Position numbers and translations under genes: made by a program
Part shown: in pieces, positions 5,422 to 34,194 of the stretch
Position numbering within the stretch: position 1 is the stretch's first letter
Layout of the letters: each line of letters begins with the position of its first letter
Notes under the pieces: model-generated
Database searches by the model: none
The model's input: the letters and a program-made list of their open reading frames with translations, nothing else
What the model was told of the DNA's origin: nothing
Assembly (NCBI GenBank): GCA_002085025.1
Contig: MZGK01000015.1
Coordinates: forward strand, 1-34,439
Direction: 5' to 3'
DNA from: Candidatus Omnitrophica bacterium 4484_213
Lineage (GTDB): Bacteria > Omnitrophota > 4484-213
DNA length: 34,439 nucleotides

Positions 5422-6015
5422 ATGGGCTATCAAGGGGTAAAGTTTAGAACAGAAGTAATTGGCAGAGAAGTTCCTCAAAGCCCTCGCATCAAAGAACTGA
5501 AGTATTGGTGCAGAAAATTTAGTTCTCAGGGTTTTGCTCCCGTATATGAGGGGGGTTCTTACGGAAATTTGAGTTTCCGCCTCCAAGAGAGCAAGGACCA
5601 ATTTATTATTACCGCCTCGGGGATTGACCTGGGAGAGGAGTTATCCGATGATTGCTTTGTGAAAGTGGAGGATTGTGATTTAAAAAAGGGAGTAGTTTAT
5701 GCATCTGGGGAGAGAGAACCCTCGTCAGAAAGCATCCTCCATTTTGTAATTTATCATGAGAGAAAGGATGTCAACGTAATATTCCATGGGCATTCTAAGA
5801 ACATCTTAGAGCAGGCAAATGAATTAGGAATACCTCAAACAAGTAAGGAAGAACCTTGCGGACCAAATGAGTTGGTACGAAGGGTTTTTTATGATAAAGC
5901 ATTTTTGATAATGAAGAATCACGGATTTATTTCTCTGGGCAGAACTATGAGAGAGGCTGGGGAGTGGCTCAAGCCTTACTCCGTCGACGGAGGAAGGGGC
6001 TTTCTAACGGGGTAA
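5422..6015 (+). CDS. Class II aldolase/adducin-family protein (possible DHAP-shunt Ald2-type)
   Basis: GGSYGNLSFRL, ITASGIDLGEELSDD, HGHS and KNHGF motifs; directly downstream of mtnA. Confidence 0.8.
   Translation: MGYQGVKFRTEVIGREVPQSPRIKELKYWCRKFSSQGFAPVYEGGSYGNLSFRLQESKDQFIITASGIDLGEELSDDCFVKVEDCDLKKGVVYASGEREPSSESILHFVIYHERKDVNVIFHGHSKNILEQANELGIPQTSKEEPCGPNELVRRVFYDKAFLIMKNHGFISLGRTMREAGEWLKPYSVDGGRGFLTG
5971..6012. repeat. Palindromic element remnant at the 3' end of the aldolase gene
   Basis: aagccttaCTCCGTCGACGGAGgaaggggctttctaacgggg: self-complementary core plus the family right arm TTTCTAACGGGG; encodes the C-terminal FLTG*. Confidence 0.55.
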
Positions 6016-8210: not shown

Positions 8211-9419
8211 ATGCATAGTTTAGAGGATTATTATGAACTCGCAGGGGATAAGGTTATATCTGATATTCATAAAAAGGCAAGAAAACTCTATGGAAAACAT
8301 ATCCTACACATCAATTCTACCTGCCAGGGCGGTGGTGTGGCCGGGATACTCGCTTCCCTCATCCCCCTAATGAATGATGTGGGAATAGAGGCCGGCTGGA
8401 GAATACTGCACGGTAACCCTGATTTCTTTTCAATAACCAAGAAGTTTCATAATGCCCTCCAGGGAGAACAGATAAATCTCTCCGAGATAAAAAAGGAGCT
8501 ATATACCCAAACCAATAAGCTCTTTTCTGTATACACCCACATAAATCACGATTGTGTTCTAATACACGACCCGCAACCTTTACCGCTTATAAAGCTTTAT
8601 GAGAAAAAGCAACCCTGGATTTGGCGCTGCCACATAGATTTATCCCATCCCAATGAGGAGATTTGGGAGTTTCTGAAGAGATTCATTCTTAGATATGACG
8701 CAGTTATCCTTTCAAATAAGAAGTATAGAAGTAAACACCTACCCGTAGAGCAAAGGGTTATCTATCCGGCCATTGACCCACTTTCGGCAAAGAATAAAGA
8801 ACTTTCTGAGGGTGATATTTCAAAATACTTAAAAAAATTTAGAGTTCCTACAGACAAGCCGCTTATAGTTCAAGTATCAAGGTTTGACAAGTGGAAAGAC
8901 CCGGTAGGTGTAATAGAGGTATTTAATCTTGTTAAAGAAAAAATAGATTGCAGATTGGTCTTGTGCGGAAGTATGGCTGGAGATGACCCCGAGGGATGGA
9001 TGATTTATGAGATGCTAAAGAAAAAGGCAAACCGGCTTATTGAAAATAAAGATATTATATTTATAACCAGTGAGAACAGTATCCTCGTAAATGCCCTTCA
9101 ACGAAGTTCAGCAGTCATAGTTCAGAAGTCGATAAGAGAGGGTTTTGGGCTTACGGTAACTGAGGGGCTCTGGAAAGAGAAACCAGTGGTAGCGACAAAT
9201 GTGGGCGGAATTTCCCTTCAGATAGATAATGGAAAAAACGGGTTTTTGGTTGAGCCATCAGATATAAAAGGATTTGCCCAAAGGGTTGTTCAAGTCCTGA
9301 AAAACCGTAAACTTGCCGAGAAGCTTGGTAAAAAGGGCAGAGAGATTGTCAAAGAAAAATTCCTGATAACCCGACTTTTATCCGATTATTTGGATTTATT
9401 GAATGAAATGATAAGATGA
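8211..9419 (+). CDS. GT4 glycosyltransferase, trehalose glycosyltransferring synthase (TreT)-like
   Basis: HINSTCQGGGVAGILASLIPLMNDVGIEAGWRILHGNPDFF, HDPQPLPLI and a GT4 C-terminus SIREGFGLTVTEGLW. Confidence 0.8.
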   Translation: MHSLEDYYELAGDKVISDIHKKARKLYGKHILHINSTCQGGGVAGILASLIPLMNDVGIEAGWRILHGNPDFFSITKKFHNALQGEQINLSEIKKELYTQTNKLFSVYTHINHDCVLIHDPQPLPLIKLYEKKQPWIWRCHIDLSHPNEEIWEFLKRFILRYDAVILSNKKYRSKHLPVEQRVIYPAIDPLSAKNKELSEGDISKYLKKFRVPTDKPLIVQVSRFDKWKDPVGVIEVFNLVKEKIDCRLVLCGSMAGDDPEGWMIYEMLKKKANRLIENKDIIFITSENSILVNALQRSSAVIVQKSIREGFGLTVTEGLWKEKPVVATNVGGISLQIDNGKNGFLVEPSDIKGFAQRVVQVLKNRKLAEKLGKKGREIVKEKFLITRLLSDYLDLLNEMIR

Positions 9420-10486
9420 ATAATAAAAATTCAAGAAGAATACTGGTGAGTGGAAACGAAGCGGTTGGGGAAGCGGCAATCCAGGCTGGATGCACTTTTT
9501 ATGCCGGTTATCCAATTACTCCCCAGAATGAACTCACCGCTTATATGTCCAGAAGGATGTCCGAAACCGGGGGGACTTTTATCCAGGCTGAGAGTGAGTT
9601 GGCGGCGATTAATATGGTCTTTGGCGCCTCGGCGGCTGGTGCGCGGGCAATGACCTCTTCCTCCAGCCCGGGAATTTCCTTGAAGCAAGAGGGGATTTCT
9701 TATCTCGTTGGTTGCAAACTGCCGGCAGTGATTGTAAATATGATGCGCGCCGGTCCGGGTTTAGGCAATATTACTCCTGCCCAGGGCGATTATTTTCAGG
9801 CAACCCGGGGCGGTGGCCACGGCGATTATCGGACAATTGTGCTTGCTCCGAGTTCTGTCCAGGAAGCATTTGAACTGCAGATACTCGCCTTTGATTTAGC
9901 TGATAAATACCGCAATCCGGTGATACTTTTAGGAGATGGAACGCTCGGGCAGATGATGGAACCGCTCACCCTACACCCTACACCCTACACCCTACACGCT
10001 ACTCAGAAACCCTGGGCGGTGACGGGTTGTAAAGAGAGAGAACCGAATGTAATTCGTTCCCTATTTCTAAAAGAAGGAGTTTTGGAAGAACACAACAAAA
10101 AATTGCAAAAAAAATTTGCCGAGATAGAAAAGAAAGAAATTCGTTATGAAGAGAAAAACACAGAGGATGCTGAGGTAATCCTGGTAGCTTATGGGACAGT
10201 AAGCCGAATCTGCCAGGCGGTAATGGAAAAAGCGAGAAGAAAAGGAGCCAAGGTTGGTTTAATCCGCCCGATTACTTTATGGCCGTTCCCTTACGGGATG
10301 ATAAATAAACTTGCTGATTTAAAGAAAAAATTTTTAGTGATAGAAATGAATTACGGCCAGATGCTTGAGGATGTAAAATTGGCAGCGGAAGGAAAGAGTA
10401 AGGTGAAATTTTATGGACGGGGAGGAGGGGGGATACCGCAAGAAGAGGAAATAATGACAGAACTTTTGCATTTCTCACTCTCGTGA
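9416..10486 (+). CDS. korA: 2-oxoacid:ferredoxin oxidoreductase alpha subunit (KorA/VorB-type)
   Basis: GNEAVGEAAIQAGCTFYAGYPITPQNELTAYMS, TSSSSPGISLKQEGISYLVG. The C-terminus LLHFSLS* lies inside a repeat element. Confidence 0.9.
   Translation: MNNKNSRRILVSGNEAVGEAAIQAGCTFYAGYPITPQNELTAYMSRRMSETGGTFIQAESELAAINMVFGASAAGARAMTSSSSPGISLKQEGISYLVGCKLPAVIVNMMRAGPGLGNITPAQGDYFQATRGGGHGDYRTIVLAPSSVQEAFELQILAFDLADKYRNPVILLGDGTLGQMMEPLTLHPTPYTLHATQKPWAVTGCKEREPNVIRSLFLKEGVLEEHNKKLQKKFAEIEKKEIRYEEKNTEDAEVILVAYGTVSRICQAVMEKARRKGAKVGLIRPITLWPFPYGMINKLADLKKKFLVIEMNYGQMLEDVKLAAEGKSKVKFYGRGGGGIPQEEEIMTELLHFSLS
9968..10002. repeat. Heptanucleotide array (ACCCTAC)x4 plus a degenerate unit inside korA
   Basis: accctac accctac accctac accctac acgctac; encodes TLHPTPYTLHAT. 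Confidence 0.9.
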
Positions 10487-12146: not shown

Positions 12147-13583
12147 ATGTTAAAGGTTAGATTTGCCCCCAGCCCTACCGGCTCATTGCACTTAGGCAGT
12201 GCGCGCACTGCCTTATTTAATTTCTTATTTGCCGGGAATAAAAAGGGGAGATTTGTTCTAAGGATTGAGGATAGCGATAGAGAGCGTTCAGATAAGAAAC
12301 TGGTGGAGGAAATTTTAGAAGACCTCCGCTGGTTAGGCTTGCAATGGGACGAGGGTCCCTATTTTCAGAGTGAAAGAATAGACCTCTACAAAAAATATGC
12401 CGAGAAGTTATTGAATGAAGGGAAAGCGTACTTGGAAAAAGCGCAAAGCGCAAAGCGCAAAGCGCAAAGCGCAGCTATAGTTTTTAAAGTACATCCGCAG
12501 AAGATTAAAATAAACGATTTGATTTACGGAGAAATTGAATTCGACACCAGTGTCCTCAAGGACCAGGTGTTGATGAAATCAGATGGTTCTCCTACCTATA
12601 ATTTTGCCTGCGTCATTGATGACCATCAACTGAGAATTACCCATATAATCCGCGGGGATGACCATATTTCCAATACCCCAAAGCAGATAATGTTTTATCA
12701 GGCACTTGGTTGGCAAATTCCTGAATTTGCTCATATTCCTTTGATTATGGAACCGGGAGGGGGGCGACTCTCCAAGCGCTACGGAGCAACTGCCGTGGGG
12801 GAATATCGCCAGAAAGGTTATTTGTCCGAGGCGCTAATTAATTATCTTGCTCTCTTGGGCTGGGCGCCGGCGGGCACCCGCGAGATTGTTTCTTTAGACG
12901 AAATGATTTCCAAATTCTCTTTGTCTAAAATCAACAAAACAAAGGCTATATTTAATATTGACAAGCTAAATTGGCTTAACGCTCAGTATATTAAACAAAC
13001 GGAGACAAAAAGGATGGTGGAGCTTTGTATTCCTTTTTTGCGGAAGGACGGATTAATCTCTAATGATTACGATTTTAGCCACTTAGAGAAAATCGTTGAT
13101 TTATTTAAAGGGCGGCTAAAGTATCTTTCCCAAATCAGTGCGATGGCTGATTATTTCTTTCTACCGGCAAGGCTAAAGTATTCAAAAGAAGCAAAAACCG
13201 TTATTAAAAAATTAGATAAAGAAATTTGGCAGGAGTTAATAAAGCGATTAGATAATATAGATGATTTTACCCCGTTAGAGAAAGCTGTCGATTTTAATCG
13301 GCGGTCATTACCGATTAAAGGTGACGGTGGTTTAAAGCCGCCGTCACCCCAGACCCTTAGAGAACGAAGTTCTCCAACGGGGTTTACTGCCGATAACGTA
13401 GAAAAGGCTTGCCGTGAGATAATTGCTGAAAAGGGAATAAAGGGCGCCGAACTTATCCATCCCCTAAGAGCGGCTTTAACTAATATGCCAGTAGGGCCGG
13501 GTTTATTTGAGTTAATTTCTGTATTAGGAAAGAAAAAGGCGATAGAGAGACTTAAAGTATGCCTCGCTACGCTTGGCATATGA
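12147..13583 (+). CDS. gltX: Glutamyl-tRNA synthetase (Glu/Gln-tRNA ligase)
   Basis: RFAPSPTGSLHLGSARTALFNFLFA, LRIEDSDRERS, GGGRLSKRYGATAV (KRSKR-type motif), LINYLALLGWAP. Confidence 0.97.
   Translation: MLKVRFAPSPTGSLHLGSARTALFNFLFAGNKKGRFVLRIEDSDRERSDKKLVEEILEDLRWLGLQWDEGPYFQSERIDLYKKYAEKLLNEGKAYLEKAQSAKRKAQSAAIVFKVHPQKIKINDLIYGEIEFDTSVLKDQVLMKSDGSPTYNFACVIDDHQLRITHIIRGDDHISNTPKQIMFYQALGWQIPEFAHIPLIMEPGGGRLSKRYGATAVGEYRQKGYLSEALINYLALLGWAPAGTREIVSLDEMISKFSLSKINKTKAIFNIDKLNWLNAQYIKQTETKRMVELCIPFLRKDGLISNDYDFSHLEKIVDLFKGRLKYLSQISAMADYFFLPARLKYSKEAKTVIKKLDKEIWQELIKRLDNIDDFTPLEKAVDFNRRSLPIKGDGGLKPPSPQTLRERSSPTGFTADNVEKACREIIAEKGIKGAELIHPLRAALTNMPVGPGLFELISVLGKKKAIERLKVCLATLGI
12441..12473. 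repeat. Heptanucleotide array (GCGCAAA)x~4.7 in gltX
   Basis: gcgcaaagcgcaaagcgcaaagcgcaaagcgca; encodes KAQSAKRKAQSA. Confidence 0.92.
13271..13382. mobile_element. In-frame CCCGTTAG-type palindromic element in gltX, with 5-bp TSD TTTAC
   Basis: TTTAC(13266-13270)-CCCGTTAGAGAA...TTCTCCAACGGGG-TTTAC(13383-13387). 112 bp + 5 = 117 bp = 39 codons. Removing it restores DDFTADNVEKA. Confidence 0.85.
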
Positions 13584-16905: not shown

Positions 16906-18189
16906 ATGACCATCACCTTCAAAACCATTGGATGCAAGGTCAATCAGTATGAGACGCAATTACTGCGCGAGCAGTTTGCTTCTATTGGCTGGCAGGAAGT
17001 CGAGGAAGGTGGGGATGTCTATCTAATAAATACCTGTTCGGTTACTGCTGCCGCCGATAGAAAATCAAGGTATCTGATAAACAGTGCCTTAAAACTAAAC
17101 CCTCAGCCAAAAGTGATAGTTATTGGCTGTGGAGTGAATAACAGATTTAGCGGAATTAGAGATATTAAAGGGGTAGTTTTTAATGTCCGAAGTTTCGCTT
17201 CGGACAAACCCCAAACCATCTCTTATTTTAAAAATCATACTCGGGCATTTATCAAAATTCAAGACGGGTGTGATAACTTTTGCTCCTTTTGCATTATTCC
17301 TTATTTGCGGGGAAGATCTCGCAGTCGAGATGTAGAACAAATTATAACAGAGGTAAAACAATTAGCTGATAATCGGTTCAAGGAAATAATTCTCAGCGGG
17401 GTTAATTTAGGGGCTTACGGAAAGGATATCGGGATGAATCTAATAGATCTGATTGAGGAGTTAGAAAAGATAAAGGGGATTGAAAGGATTAGATTGAGTT
17501 CGCTAAACCCAGAGGATGTTACTCAAGATTTAATCGCCAAATTTAGGGATTCCCAAAAACTCTGCCCGCATCTCCATATCTCTCTTCAGAGCGGGGATGA
17601 TGCTGTCCTGAAGAGGATGAACCGTCCTTATACCAGTAGTGACTTTTTAAATTTAATAGAAAGAATTAGAAAAATAGACCCTTTATTCTCCTTTACTACT
17701 GACATCTTAATTGGCTTTCCTGGTGAAGGAGAAAGAGAGTTTCTAAACACGCTAAAGTTGGTAAAGAAAGTAGAATTCACTCGCACTCATATCTTTTCTT
17801 ATAGCCCACGAGAAGGTACTAAAGCGGCAAGTTTCCCCCAGATGGTTTGTTCGGCTGAGATTAAGAGAAGGCTCAATCTTCTCAAAGAGATAACCGCAGA
17901 GTCTTCTTATAACTATCGTCGAAGGTTCCTAAATCAAGATGCAGGCCCCGTTAGAAACAGAACACCAAAGGTATCCGTCGGTCACCGAAGGCAATCTTTC
18001 TTTAGCAGCGTAAAGGTCTTAGTAGAAGATAAAAAAGATAAAAATGGTTACCTAAAGGGCTACACCGAGCGTTATGTTAAAGTTCTTTTAAAAGGAAGCA
18101 ATAAGTTGAAAAATAAGATAATTTCTGTTAAAATAAACAAAGTGGATGTAGAGAGAACCTTTGGAGTAGTTGAGCGGAGCGAAAGATAA
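16906..18189 (+). CDS. mtaB: tRNA t6A37 methylthiotransferase
   Basis: FKTIGCKVNQYETQLLREQF, NTCSVTAAADRKSR, IKIQDGCDNFCSFCIIPYLRGRSRSR (radical SAM), HLHISLQSGDDAVLKRMNRPY, TDILIGFPGE. Confidence 0.96.
   Translation: MTITFKTIGCKVNQYETQLLREQFASIGWQEVEEGGDVYLINTCSVTAAADRKSRYLINSALKLNPQPKVIVIGCGVNNRFSGIRDIKGVVFNVRSFASDKPQTISYFKNHTRAFIKIQDGCDNFCSFCIIPYLRGRSRSRDVEQIITEVKQLADNRFKEIILSGVNLGAYGKDIGMNLIDLIEELEKIKGIERIRLSSLNPEDVTQDLIAKFRDSQKLCPHLHISLQSGDDAVLKRMNRPYTSSDFLNLIERIRKIDPLFSFTTDILIGFPGEGEREFLNTLKLVKKVEFTRTHIFSYSPREGTKAASFPQMVCSAEIKRRLNLLKEITAESSYNYRRRFLNQDAGPVRNRTPKVSVGHRRQSFFSSVKVLVEDKKDKNGYLKGYTERYVKVLLKGSNKLKNKIISVKINKVDVERTFGVVERSER
17184..17206. repeat. 23-nt perfect palindrome TGTCCGAAG-TTTCG-CTTCGGACA inside mtaB
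   Basis: Identical to 27632-27654 in tsaB. Confidence 0.9.
17946..18010. mobile_element. Probable decayed palindromic element in the mtaB C-terminal region
   Basis: Left arm CCCCGTTAGAAAC; peptide GPVRNRTPKVSVGHRRQSFFS interrupts the expected YRRRFLN...VKVLVEDK; right arm diverged (ctttctttag). Confidence 0.5.
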
Positions 18190-20242: not shown

Positions 20243-20959
20243 ATGAATATTCCCATTCTTATCCCTGTTTATAATGAGCAGGCGACTATTGGACAATTGG
20301 TGAAAGAATGCCGCCGCTATTCCGATAGTATATATGTCGTTAATGATGGCTCAAGAGATAGGAGTGCGCAGATTGCCCAAGATGAAGGAGCGGTTATTAT
20401 TACTCACAGTAAGAATAAAGGAAAGGGAGCATCCCTTCGCGATGGCTTTCAAGAGATTCTCAAAGAGGATTTCAAGGCTCTCATTACTATGGATGGAGAT
20501 GGGCAGCACGATCCTCTTGAAATACCCAAGTTTATCCAGAAGTTTCAAGAGACTAACGCCGATTTAATTCTGGGCAGCAGAATAGATAGAAAAACAATGC
20601 CCTTTATTCGCCGGATTACTAATAGATTTATGTCGCGACTCATATCTTCTATGGTCGGACAAAGGATTCCCGATACTCAATCCGGGTTTCGTCTAATTAA
20701 GACAGAGATACTGAAAAATATCAATTTAGAAACATCTAATTTTGAGATAGAATCAGAGTTAATTATGAAAGCAAGCAGAATGGGTTGCCGAATTATTTCT
20801 ATTCCCATTTCTACTATCTATCGGCGGGAAAGAAGTAAGATTAAGCCAATAACAGACGCCTGGAGATTTTTGAGGTTGGTTATTAACCCTGTTAGGAATT
20901 CTGATGAGAAGCTCTTTCAAAACTTGGAAGGTTTATCTCATTCTAAGGGTAATTTCTAA
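20243..20959 (+). CDS. Family 2 glycosyltransferase (polyprenyl-phosphate glycosyltransferase-like)
   Basis: IPILIPVYNEQATIGQLVKECRRY, VVNDGSRDRS, KGKGASLRDGF, TMDGDGQHDPLEIP. Confidence 0.9.
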   Translation: MNIPILIPVYNEQATIGQLVKECRRYSDSIYVVNDGSRDRSAQIAQDEGAVIITHSKNKGKGASLRDGFQEILKEDFKALITMDGDGQHDPLEIPKFIQKFQETNADLILGSRIDRKTMPFIRRITNRFMSRLISSMVGQRIPDTQSGFRLIKTEILKNINLETSNFEIESELIMKASRMGCRIISIPISTIYRRERSKIKPITDAWRFLRLVINPVRNSDEKLFQNLEGLSHSKGNF

Positions 20960-20963
20960 CGGG
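20888..20963. mobile_element. Palindromic element forming the C-terminus and stop of the GT2 gene
   Basis: CCTGTTAGGAATT...AATTTCTAACGGG; encodes NPVRNS...GNF* with the TAA in the right arm. Confidence 0.65.
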
Positions 20964-20970
20964 CGAAAAG

Positions 20971-23917: not shown

Positions 23918-24151
23918 TTTTGCATTCCTCGCTCTCGTGGGTTTTTCTTAACGCTAAAATCTGCGTTTCGGCAGGCAAAAATCAAACTCGCCCGCCTCTG
24001 CCCCTCAACATTTCGGGACATCGGCGGTCTCCGTTAGAAATATCTGTTTTTTTATGTTTCAGTGTTAGAAGTTTGGCAAAATTGCTGACATTGGGAATTT
24101 CTAACGGGGTCAACTCGATTTTAGCTAAAAAAACCAATGTTCGCTCAAAAC
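23918..24151. mobile_element. Fold-back element, copy B, carrying the nested CCCGTTAG MITE (24031-24109)
   Basis: Near-identical to 33782-34028; 3' end supplies ATGTTCGCTCAAAAC to the next gene. Confidence 0.85.
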
Positions 24152-25724: not shown

Positions 25725-26747
25725 TTGTTTAACCTCGATCAATTTAAGATGGAAATTGGTGAAATTGGAGAAATAGACTTAATTGATAAAATTGCCCGCG
25801 AGACAAAGATAGATAGAACTGTAATCAAGGGAATTGGCGATGATACAGCTGTTCTAAAATATTCCAACAAAGAGTATCTATTATTTACCACTGATATGCT
25901 ATTGGAAGGAGTCCACTTTACCCACTTGCGCCCCAGGGGTGCAAGTAAGGTCAGGCTCTTTTATAATATTGGCTGGAAGTCTTTGGCTTGCTCTATCAGT
26001 GATATTGCGGCAATGGGTGGAATTCCTCAATATTGCCTCGTTTCTCTTGGATTGCCACCAAATTTAGAATTGGATTCTCTTAAGCAATTATACTCAGGAA
26101 TTAAAACGATTGCCCGAAAATTTAAGATTAATGTTGTTGGCGGAGATACTATAAAAAGCAGGAGATTAATTATCAATATTGCTCTTTTAGGAAGGGTGCT
26201 TAAGGAAAAGTTGGTTCTTCGTTCAGGGGCGAAAAAGGGAGATGCTATTTTAGTAACAGGAAGCTTGGGGGAAGCTATTTTGGGTAAACATTTGGCCTTT
26301 ACCCCGTTAGAGAAGTTTTTAACACGGAGTAAAAGAGGTATCCATAATGTTGGAGAGTGCTCAAAGTATTCTTTAACGGGATTTACTCCTCGCTTAAAAG
26401 AAGCTCAATACTTGGTAAATAATTTCAAGATTCATTCAATGATTGATATTTCCGATGGTTTGATTTTGGATTTATGGCGTATTTTAAAACAGAGCGGGAA
26501 GGGGGCAAAGATTTTTTTAGAAAAAATTCCTATTTCGGCGGTGGCCAAGAGAGGAAAAAACGGCTTAAAGAAAGCGTTATACGGCGGAGAGGATTTTGAA
26601 TTGTTATTTACTGCAAGCAAAAGAACGGCTCAAAAAATAGCTGCTCAGAAACTGGCGCGCATCATCGGAGAAATTAACGACAGAAGGAATATTATAGAAT
26701 CCTCTGATGGAAGGAAGCTAAGGATAAATGGCTATCGACACTTTTGA
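25725..26747 (+). CDS. thiL: Thiamine-monophosphate kinase
   Basis: GIGDDTAVLKY, FTTDMLLEGVHFT, WKSLACSISDIAAMGG, VVGGDTIKS, MIDISDGLILDL, ALYGGEDFELLFT. Start could be 25749. Confidence 0.94.
   Translation: MFNLDQFKMEIGEIGEIDLIDKIARETKIDRTVIKGIGDDTAVLKYSNKEYLLFTTDMLLEGVHFTHLRPRGASKVRLFYNIGWKSLACSISDIAAMGGIPQYCLVSLGLPPNLELDSLKQLYSGIKTIARKFKINVVGGDTIKSRRLIINIALLGRVLKEKLVLRSGAKKGDAILVTGSLGEAILGKHLAFTPLEKFLTRSKRGIHNVGECSKYSLTGFTPRLKEAQYLVNNFKIHSMIDISDGLILDLWRILKQSGKGAKIFLEKIPISAVAKRGKNGLKKALYGGEDFELLFTASKRTAQKIAAQKLARIIGEINDRRNIIESSDGRKLRINGYRHF
26303..26381. mobile_element. In-frame CCCGTTAG-type element in thiL with 5-bp TSD TTTAC
   Basis: TTTAC(26298-26302)-CCCGTTAGAGAAG...TCTTTAACGGGA-TTTAC(26382-26386). 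79 bp + 5 = 84 bp = 28 codons. Removal gives GKHLAFTPRLKEAQYL. Confidence 0.87.
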
Positions 26748-33767: not shown

Positions 33768-33781
33768 CTATGCCAACAGAA

Positions 33782-34028
33782 GTTTTGCATTTCTCGCTCT
33801 CGTGGGTTTTTCTTAACGCTAAAATCTGCGTTTCGGCAGGCAAAAATCAAACTCGCCCGCCTCTGCCCCTCAACATTTCGGGACATCGGCGGTCTCTCCT
33901 GCCTCAACCCCGTTAGAAATATCTGTTTTTTATGTTTCAGTGTTAGAAGTTTGGCAAAATTGCTGACATTGGGAATTTCTAACGGGGTCAACTCGATTTT
34001 AGCTAAAAAAACCAATGTTCGCTCAAAA
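33782..34028. mobile_element. Fold-back element, copy C, with intact nested MITE
   Basis: GTTTTGCATTTCTCGCTCTCGTGGGTTTTTCTTAACGCTAAAATC ... GATTTTAGCTAAAAAAACCAATGTTCGCTCAAAAC (imperfect inverted ends). Confidence 0.87.
33909..33987. mobile_element. Nested 79-bp CCCGTTAG-type MITE with TSD TCAAC
   Basis: TCAAC(33904-33908)-CCCGTTAGAAAT...ATTTCTAACGGGG-TCAAC(33988-33992); empty site gccTCAACttgatttt in copy A (10672-10676). Confidence 0.88.
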
Positions 34029-34194
34029 CATAATCTTTTGCATCATAATCGCTTTTTTTATGTTTATTTTTTATAAAGTAATTCATCCGGTGAATATAAT
34101 GATGGTGAGGGAGTATAAGGATTATATGTTAAATACTGATGATGAGAAGGATGTTCAGAATAAAGTTGAAGGGCGGATTGAGGTAACCCAATAG
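34015..34194 (+). CDS. Small membrane protein beginning MFAQN from repeat copy C
   Basis: MFAQNIIFCIIIAFFMFIFYKVIHPVNIMMVREYKDYMLNTDDEKDVQNKVEGRIEVTQ*, 59 aa with one TM segment. Confidence 0.5.
   Translation: MFAQNIIFCIIIAFFMFIFYKVIHPVNIMMVREYKDYMLNTDDEKDVQNKVEGRIEVTQ

Follow-up and report, generated by a model that had tools for sequence, protein, structure and literature searches.

Palindromic sequences inserted in frame have been described in Rickettsia and, to a lesser extent, among the ERIC, Correia and Yersinia repeats (PMC2229807; PMC10969869). The Rickettsia palindromic elements (RPEs; Ogata et al. 2000, reviewed in PMC2229807 and PMC10969869) are palindromic sequences dispersed in intergenic regions and, in frame, within genes, and such "selfish DNA in proteins" has so far been treated as a peculiarity of Rickettsia with scattered minor parallels. 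Like RPEs, the elements described here measure ~105 to 150 bp, are palindromic and reside in frame in unrelated, often essential genes with an open frame throughout. They differ in their hosts, which are Omnitrophota and other phyla and not Rickettsia (in a nonexhaustive scan), and in having a clear TTTA duplication, a spread over several phyla, a strong preference for the cleavage motif of prepilins and two covarying inner hairpins. The original prediction, made from sequence alone, had likened the element in gltX to RPEs in concept; the comparison held in concept only, and no sequence kinship was found.

ERIC, the 107-bp form of Correia/NEMIS and Yersinia YPAL (PMC2229807) are also short, lack a transposase gene, carry terminal inverted repeats, duplicate their target and form in-frame fusions, but those described are each confined to one genus or family, whereas the present family has a TTTA-like duplication and is common in core genes. 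With REP/BIME and their RAYTs (PMC3733652) it shares composite hairpins and a right end also found as a solo hairpin; however, it lacks the GTAG/CGTC tag, carries target duplications, and no RAYT was found beside its ends. No GTAG/CGTC-tagged palindrome was present, and other palindromes border the RAYT-like genes of the host genome (G000), G096 and G075. IS608 and the IS200/IS605 group (PMC5934647) similarly have TTAC adjoining the left end and AAAG before the first hairpin, whereas the present family duplicates its target on both sides and no associated tnpA was found.

An in-frame insertion in gltX

The window, the whole stretch of 34,439 nucleotides analysed here, is contig 37 of G000, the fragmented 0.93-Mb MAG of an uncultured Omnitrophota bacterium, 86% complete. 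Two of the genomes compared with it, G001 and G002, belong to the same genus and a third, G003, to the same family. The gene holding the element (Table 1) is identified as gltX by TIGR00464 gltX_bact (475.6 bits against a cut-off of 290) and by the Pfam domains tRNA-synt_1c and Anticodon_2. No other gltX was found in this 86% complete genome, and the two other matches of the GltX search there are copies of the element. The gltX frame runs through the element without a stop, and the net insertion of 117 bp encodes 39 codons, with the peptide PLEKAVDFNRRSLPIKGDGGLKPPSPQTLRERSSPTGFT, which includes GDGGLKPPSPQTLR.

Table 1. Features of the gltX and thiL loci and of an intergenic copy (window positions)
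Feature	Position	Strand	Remarks
gltX, glutamyl-tRNA synthetase	12147..13583	+	478 aa including the insert
Left target-site copy TTTA	13266..13269	+	
Palindromic element body	13270..13382	+	113 bp; with one TTTA copy, net 117 bp
Left terminal inverted repeat CCCCGTTAGAGAA	13270..13282	+	13 bp; pairs in the outer helix
Hairpin A	13285..13304	+	8 pairs, 6 with compensatory changes
Hairpin B	13320..13348	+	11 pairs, 9 with compensatory changes
Hairpin C	13354..13382	+	Self-fold of the right end, in competition with the outer helix
Right terminal inverted repeat TTCTCCAACGGGG	13370..13382	+	
Right target-site copy TTTA	13383..13386	+	Followed by C, T
thiL, thiamine-phosphate kinase	25725..26747	+	Holds a second in-frame element; TIGR01379, 265 bits (cut-off 184)
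thiL element, other subtype	26298..26385	+	TTTA + 80 bp + TTTA; net 84 bp, 28 codons; FTPLEKFLTRSKRGIHNVGECSKYSLTGFT
Intergenic element, related ends CCCCGTTAGAAA...TTTCTAACGGGG	33908..33987	+	TCAA target copies on both sides

Alignments to other GltX relatives break off near residue 375 and pick up again near 413, with the inserted segment missing, and the GltX of G002 reads DD-FSTENIERV at the insertion site with no insert. When compared with Thermotoga GluRS1 (2o5r), the blocks flanking the insert join at chain residues 414/415 and the insert itself has no counterpart. This alignment places the 39 insert residues in the anticodon-binding domain. The gltX contig of G001 starts with CGGGGTAAAATCATC, the reverse of GATGATTTTACCCCG, and so is cut off within an element, at the same base. 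Probably, therefore, G000 and G001 share the insertion, which would have arisen after they diverged from G002. Over the part of gltX common to G000 and G001, dS is 0.10 and dN 0.025, a ratio of 0.25 that indicates a gene still under purifying selection. That the insert peptide is retained in GltX is an inference, without transcript or protein data behind it.

The original prediction had proposed a MITE-like palindrome inserted in frame in gltX, 117 bp and 39 codons long, and had suggested aligning GltX with insert-free relatives and searching related genomes for the element. The proposal was supported. The relatives lack the 39-residue segment, the search returned many dispersed copies with matching target duplications, and thiL provided a pair of empty and occupied sites. 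The thiL copy, the spread across phyla and the preference for prepilin genes had not been foreseen.

As a separate observation, positions 12437-12477 of gltX hold an in-frame tandem repeat of AAGCGCA (LEKAQSAKRKAQSAA), where G001 carries a different in-frame repeat (KAGSGERETGSGQKTE); the gene that houses the element also has a hypervariable in-frame satellite.

Structure of the element

The arms of the gltX element (ACCCCGTTAGAGAA and TTCTCCAACGGGGT; 14 nt) are 93% complementary, and its predicted fold has an energy of -52.2 kcal/mol compared to -29.7 ± 3.6 for shuffled sequences (z = -6.3). We built a structure alignment of 50 full copies and assessed covariation over the 49 distinct ones. 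The 13 pairs of the outer helix were paired in 98.1% of cells. For the outer helix together with hairpins A and B, 92.7% of cells were paired, against 33 to 53% in slid controls, and 123 cells showed a double change compared to 42.6 ± 6.2 in shuffles. The inner hairpins A and B are thus maintained across phyla by compensatory change, with the caveat that common descent of related copies can inflate such counts. Hairpin C showed little covariation and is also found elsewhere alone, as a solo palindrome of ~30 bp. The original prediction had included a hairpin TAATCGG/CCGATTA; it exists, but it is a lineage variant, and the hairpin conserved in the family is hairpin A.

Net element length falls mostly between 111 and 150 bp, with common master lengths of 114 and 117 bp, both multiples of three. 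Six element-encoded peptides had no NCBIfam or Pfam match even at E ≤ 10, and neither the window nor nine element-bearing loci matched Rfam at the gathering score.

Target site and duplication

Direct repeats of TTTAC stand at 13266-13270 and 13383-13387, and a 5-bp duplication with a 112-bp body had been predicted from them. We refine this to a 4-bp duplication, TTTA, with a 113-bp body. In 1.34 Mb of DNA, 126 of 156 element pairs had identical 4-bp flanks. TTTA is so dominant that, in most copies, a duplicated target and an invariant element terminus look alike. The unusual targets TTGA, TGAA, TCTA, CTTA, TTCG, TTAG, TTAA, CCCA and TCAA were all found duplicated (nine non-TTTA cases, all exact). 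Among copies taken by their core alone, with flanks unselected, matching unusual flanks were again seen (CTTA twice, TTCG, TTAG, TTGA, TGAA and TCTA). The flanks differ in 17 of the 26 copies with an unusual left flank, many by a single base.

In 68 of 107 copies a T follows the right TTTAC, compared to 22% for background TTTAC (p = 6e-23). The fifth base of the repeat is part of a preferred target, TTTA-C-T, and on the left it coincides with the first C of the element. The target duplication is best read as 4 bp and the preferred target as TTTA followed by CT. A duplication of this length fits a staggered double-strand cut and does not fit the IS200/IS605 route.

Further copies in the window and host clade

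The host genome has five copies of the gltX-element subtype by BLAST and 15 exact end motifs, with none for the reversed control. The element in thiL is missing from all 19 relatives searched, in which the protein match stops at 194 and resumes at ~219. The empty site in G001 reads ...GAATTTTACTCCTCGCTTAAAAGAAGCTC..., and its right flank is identical to that of G000 over ~80 bases; the left flank has locally diverged. Other in-frame copies in the host clade lie in gatA and at the N terminus of aspC in G000 and in murG of G003. The dxs gene of G001 (L327, G001:C23) holds two adjacent elements with two successive left ends (FTPLEKSTPLEKF...), one element having landed within or next to an older copy with the frame still kept.

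Several related repeats were noted alongside these copies. Two near-identical intergenic repeats, at 23920-24140 and ~33780-34030 of the window (the latter containing the TCAA-flanked copy), hold a CCCCGTTAGAAATATCTG...TTTCTAACGGGGTCAA palindrome and represent a sister family with related ends. Ends of the CCCCGTTAGAAA type also occur inside an MtaB-like gene (17946-18010; GPVRNRT...), at the C terminus of a glycosyltransferase (20885-20965; INPVRNS...) and at the C terminus of a gene ending FLTG (6000-6015), related palindromes that shape protein ends. Short PTPHA/TLHA-like segments within conserved proteins (9416-10486, TLHPTPYTLHATQ; 547-1860, TLHAACSTPHAPG; and gatA of L330, RTPHAPRPTPHAKK) suggest a second type of repeat inserted in frame. 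At a G001 locus (L007, G001:C98), an element sits within the loop of a different palindromic repeat (CCCCGTTAGATG[element]TATCTAATGGGG).

Distribution of the family

BLAST matches to the element were present in 10 of 96 genomes searched, and the exact 19-base left end was found in more than 119 stretches of GTDB genomes. At least 80 loci were recorded, from several phyla and groups: Omnitrophota, Elusimicrobia, Nitrospirae/Nitrospirota, Deltaproteobacteria, Scalindua, Phycisphaerales (Planctomycetota), Auribacterota, one Gammaproteobacterium and one Nanoarchaeote, with the reservation that single bins may be misassigned. Of 386 Omnitrophota genomes, 93 contain the exact 13-nt end motif, and control matches were few. 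The richest genomes tested had 108, 81, 71 and 53 ends (none for the reversed-motif control in those genomes), and the family reaches ~50 copies per genome. Searches of the IMG/VR, phage and plasmid collections gave no match to the element.

In the open-access literature searched, neither the end sequence nor NPVRN could be recognised as a described repeat. Within that limited scope, the gltX element belongs to a large and apparently undescribed family that spans several phyla and often lies in frame inside genes.

Reading frame and host genes

Two of the six frames of the element are usually open, the forward TTT-ACC-CCG (FTPLEK...SLTGFT) and the reverse GTA-AAC-CCC (VNPVRE...AFSNGV). Because a class of copies defined as in frame in a long ORF has openness built into its definition, our phase claim uses a non-circular test in which the flanks were joined and an ORF of at least 60 codons was required on each side, independently of the openness of the element. 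By this test 17 of 18 deep-intragenic copies lie in one of the two open phases, have a length of 3n and are stop free (14 of 14 when 80 codons are required). For intergenic copies, 44 of 75 are 3n, and 32% and 41% are both 3n and open in the two frames. The p-values for 3n length and openness from this comparison are circular in the same way as the class definition and carry no weight here. Nor does the argument lean on the overall excess of 3n lengths, much of which stems from two partly clonal length classes (114 and 117); it rests on the contrast between genic and intergenic copies and on the fixed phases. With genic copies in frame and open and intergenic ones less constrained, selection has treated the segment as though it were translated.

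By Pfam and NCBIfam, host genes include gltX, thiL, gatA, dxs, murG, proB, ybeY, mtaB and gspG, among others. Further host families are an alpha/beta hydrolase, GH77, two histidine kinases, a glycosyltransferase, a tyrosine recombinase and T2SS/pilin proteins.

Insertion at prepilin processing motifs

Many in-frame copies end exactly at a prepilin motif, as in ...KGRSSLTG|FTLVEILIVVAIIA. Among in-frame TTT-AC sites, those within a prepilin G^FTLxE motif were occupied in 14 of 21 cases, compared to 16 of 374 elsewhere (odds ratio, 45; p = 6e-13). This count was restricted to the ORFs of element-bearing loci, and selection for holding an element affects both classes alike. The right end of the element encodes SLTG^FT, of which CTA ACG GGG TTT AC supplies LTG^FT, with basic residues before it. 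An insertion thereby rebuilds the cleavage motif, so that the inserted peptide should leave with the leader, and as G^FT is restored the mature pilin should be unchanged; both steps are inferred.

In the pilin/type II secretion clusters of G096 (L239, L241 and L093), several successive prepilin genes hold an element at G^FTLxE. The same clusters include another interior subtype (GTTAGAGACAGGTCGCC...).

Mobilization and alternative explanations

The gltX segment is short, has no transposase gene, carries terminal inverted repeats, is flanked by a target duplication and belongs to a dispersed multicopy set, as expected of MITEs. We are confident that it is a non-autonomous mobile element of this kind, with 13-bp terminal inverted repeats and a 4-bp target duplication, while current mobility, the type of transposase and translation of the peptide are inferred. 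Presumably, a transposase making a 4-bp staggered cut would move the element in trans. The common net lengths of 114 and 117 bp are multiples of three and two frames are normally open, so that selection spares genic insertions in just these two phases; all they then do is extend a loop, linker or terminus that tolerates the extra residues. At prepilin genes, the target falls within the G^FTLxE codons and the right end rebuilds the motif, from which it is inferred that the inserted peptide is cut off with the leader.

No autonomous, transposase-bearing copy was found in the 1.34 Mb of DNA or in the end-motif maps inspected. Long end pairs (500 to 4000 bp) were considered as autonomous copies and rejected, as all look like adjacent short elements, several of them in pilin clusters. 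The Y1, IS1380-type and DDE_Tnp_1 loci inspected lack the element ends CCCCGTTAGAGA; other transposase families were outside the search. The DDE families PF13701 and PF01609 were accordingly rejected as the mobilizing enzyme, as was Y1/RAYT, whose own flanking palindromes also differ. Four RAYT-like Y1 genes (L220 in G000:C32, L228, L237 and L226) each have their own, different palindrome (e.g., CTTCCACACCAGGTGTGGAAG) and are separate REP-like systems in the same genomes.

One alternative is a non-autonomous element of the IS200/IS605 type, moved by single-strand Y1 (HUH) transposition and inserted 3' of TTAC without a target duplication. In its favor, the left end (TTTAC|CCCGTTAGAGAAAG plus hairpin) resembles IS608 in its TTAC left cleavage site and an AAAG guide just 5' of the hairpin (PMC5934647), the subterminal hairpins covary and Y1 domain genes are present in every element-rich genome tested. 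However, unusual targets (TTCG, TTAG, TTGA, TGAA, CTTA and TCTA) are duplicated on both sides, which the Y1 mechanism does not do, the Y1 loci examined lack these ends and those closely inspected adjoin other palindromes, and the constancy of AAAG is no evidence, as it was part of the search pattern. We consider this explanation unlikely, and the IS608-like reading was dropped because the flanks are concordant. True kinship with RPEs, spread horizontally, would account for the same behavior, namely, palindromes of 105 to 146 bp in frame in unrelated genes and tolerated in core enzymes (PMC2229807; PMC10969869). We hold it to be highly improbable, however, given that the six element peptides have no match at E ≤ 10 in NCBIfam or Pfam (libraries that may or may not hold RPE models), that no Rickettsia is among the at least 80 loci of the nonexhaustive scan and that the RPE target duplication is entered as "?" in the reviewed table and is clear in the present family.

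Two further alternatives concern the segment within gltX itself. Splicing of the mRNA, or ribosomal bypassing of the hairpin, would leave the segment out of mature GltX, and the strong fold and the essential nature of the gene could be taken to support this. We regard it as very improbable, as deep-intragenic copies are 3n and stop free in 17 of 18 cases, which would be needless under splicing or bypass, and intergenic copies are not so constrained. An ordinary lineage-specific loop expansion in GltX, or an assembly artifact, might be suspected given that the host is a fragmented MAG and the G001 contig breaks exactly at the site. The same DNA, however, is found again, with target duplications, elsewhere in the host genome and in other species, and the G001 break lies in the first bases of the element, where a repeat at that site would be expected to cause it, leaving almost no room for this explanation.

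Implications

Insertion of a MITE-kind element into protein genes has practical consequences, in that many MAG proteins from these phyla have FTPLEK...LTGFT or NPVR...FSNGV segments foreign to their protein family, which can mislead annotation and structural studies, and assemblies seem to be interrupted at the repeats, G001 being an example. A family residing in core genes (gltX, thiL, gatA, dxs and murG, among others) of several uncultured phyla makes the question of how such insertions are tolerated testable in many independent cases, and the prepilin preference is a concrete candidate for a mechanism of tolerance. On a bolder reading, the element has adapted to a safe harbor at the protein level, with the prepilin processing motif as the preferred target, the peptidase site rebuilt and the translated insert removed with the leader, while elsewhere it is a tolerated insertion of 28 to 50 residues. 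We find this possible but on balance lean slightly against it, and the removal at prepilin sites is inferred. If true, it would be a case of a transposable element hiding its own translated product by means of a signal-processing protease of the host.
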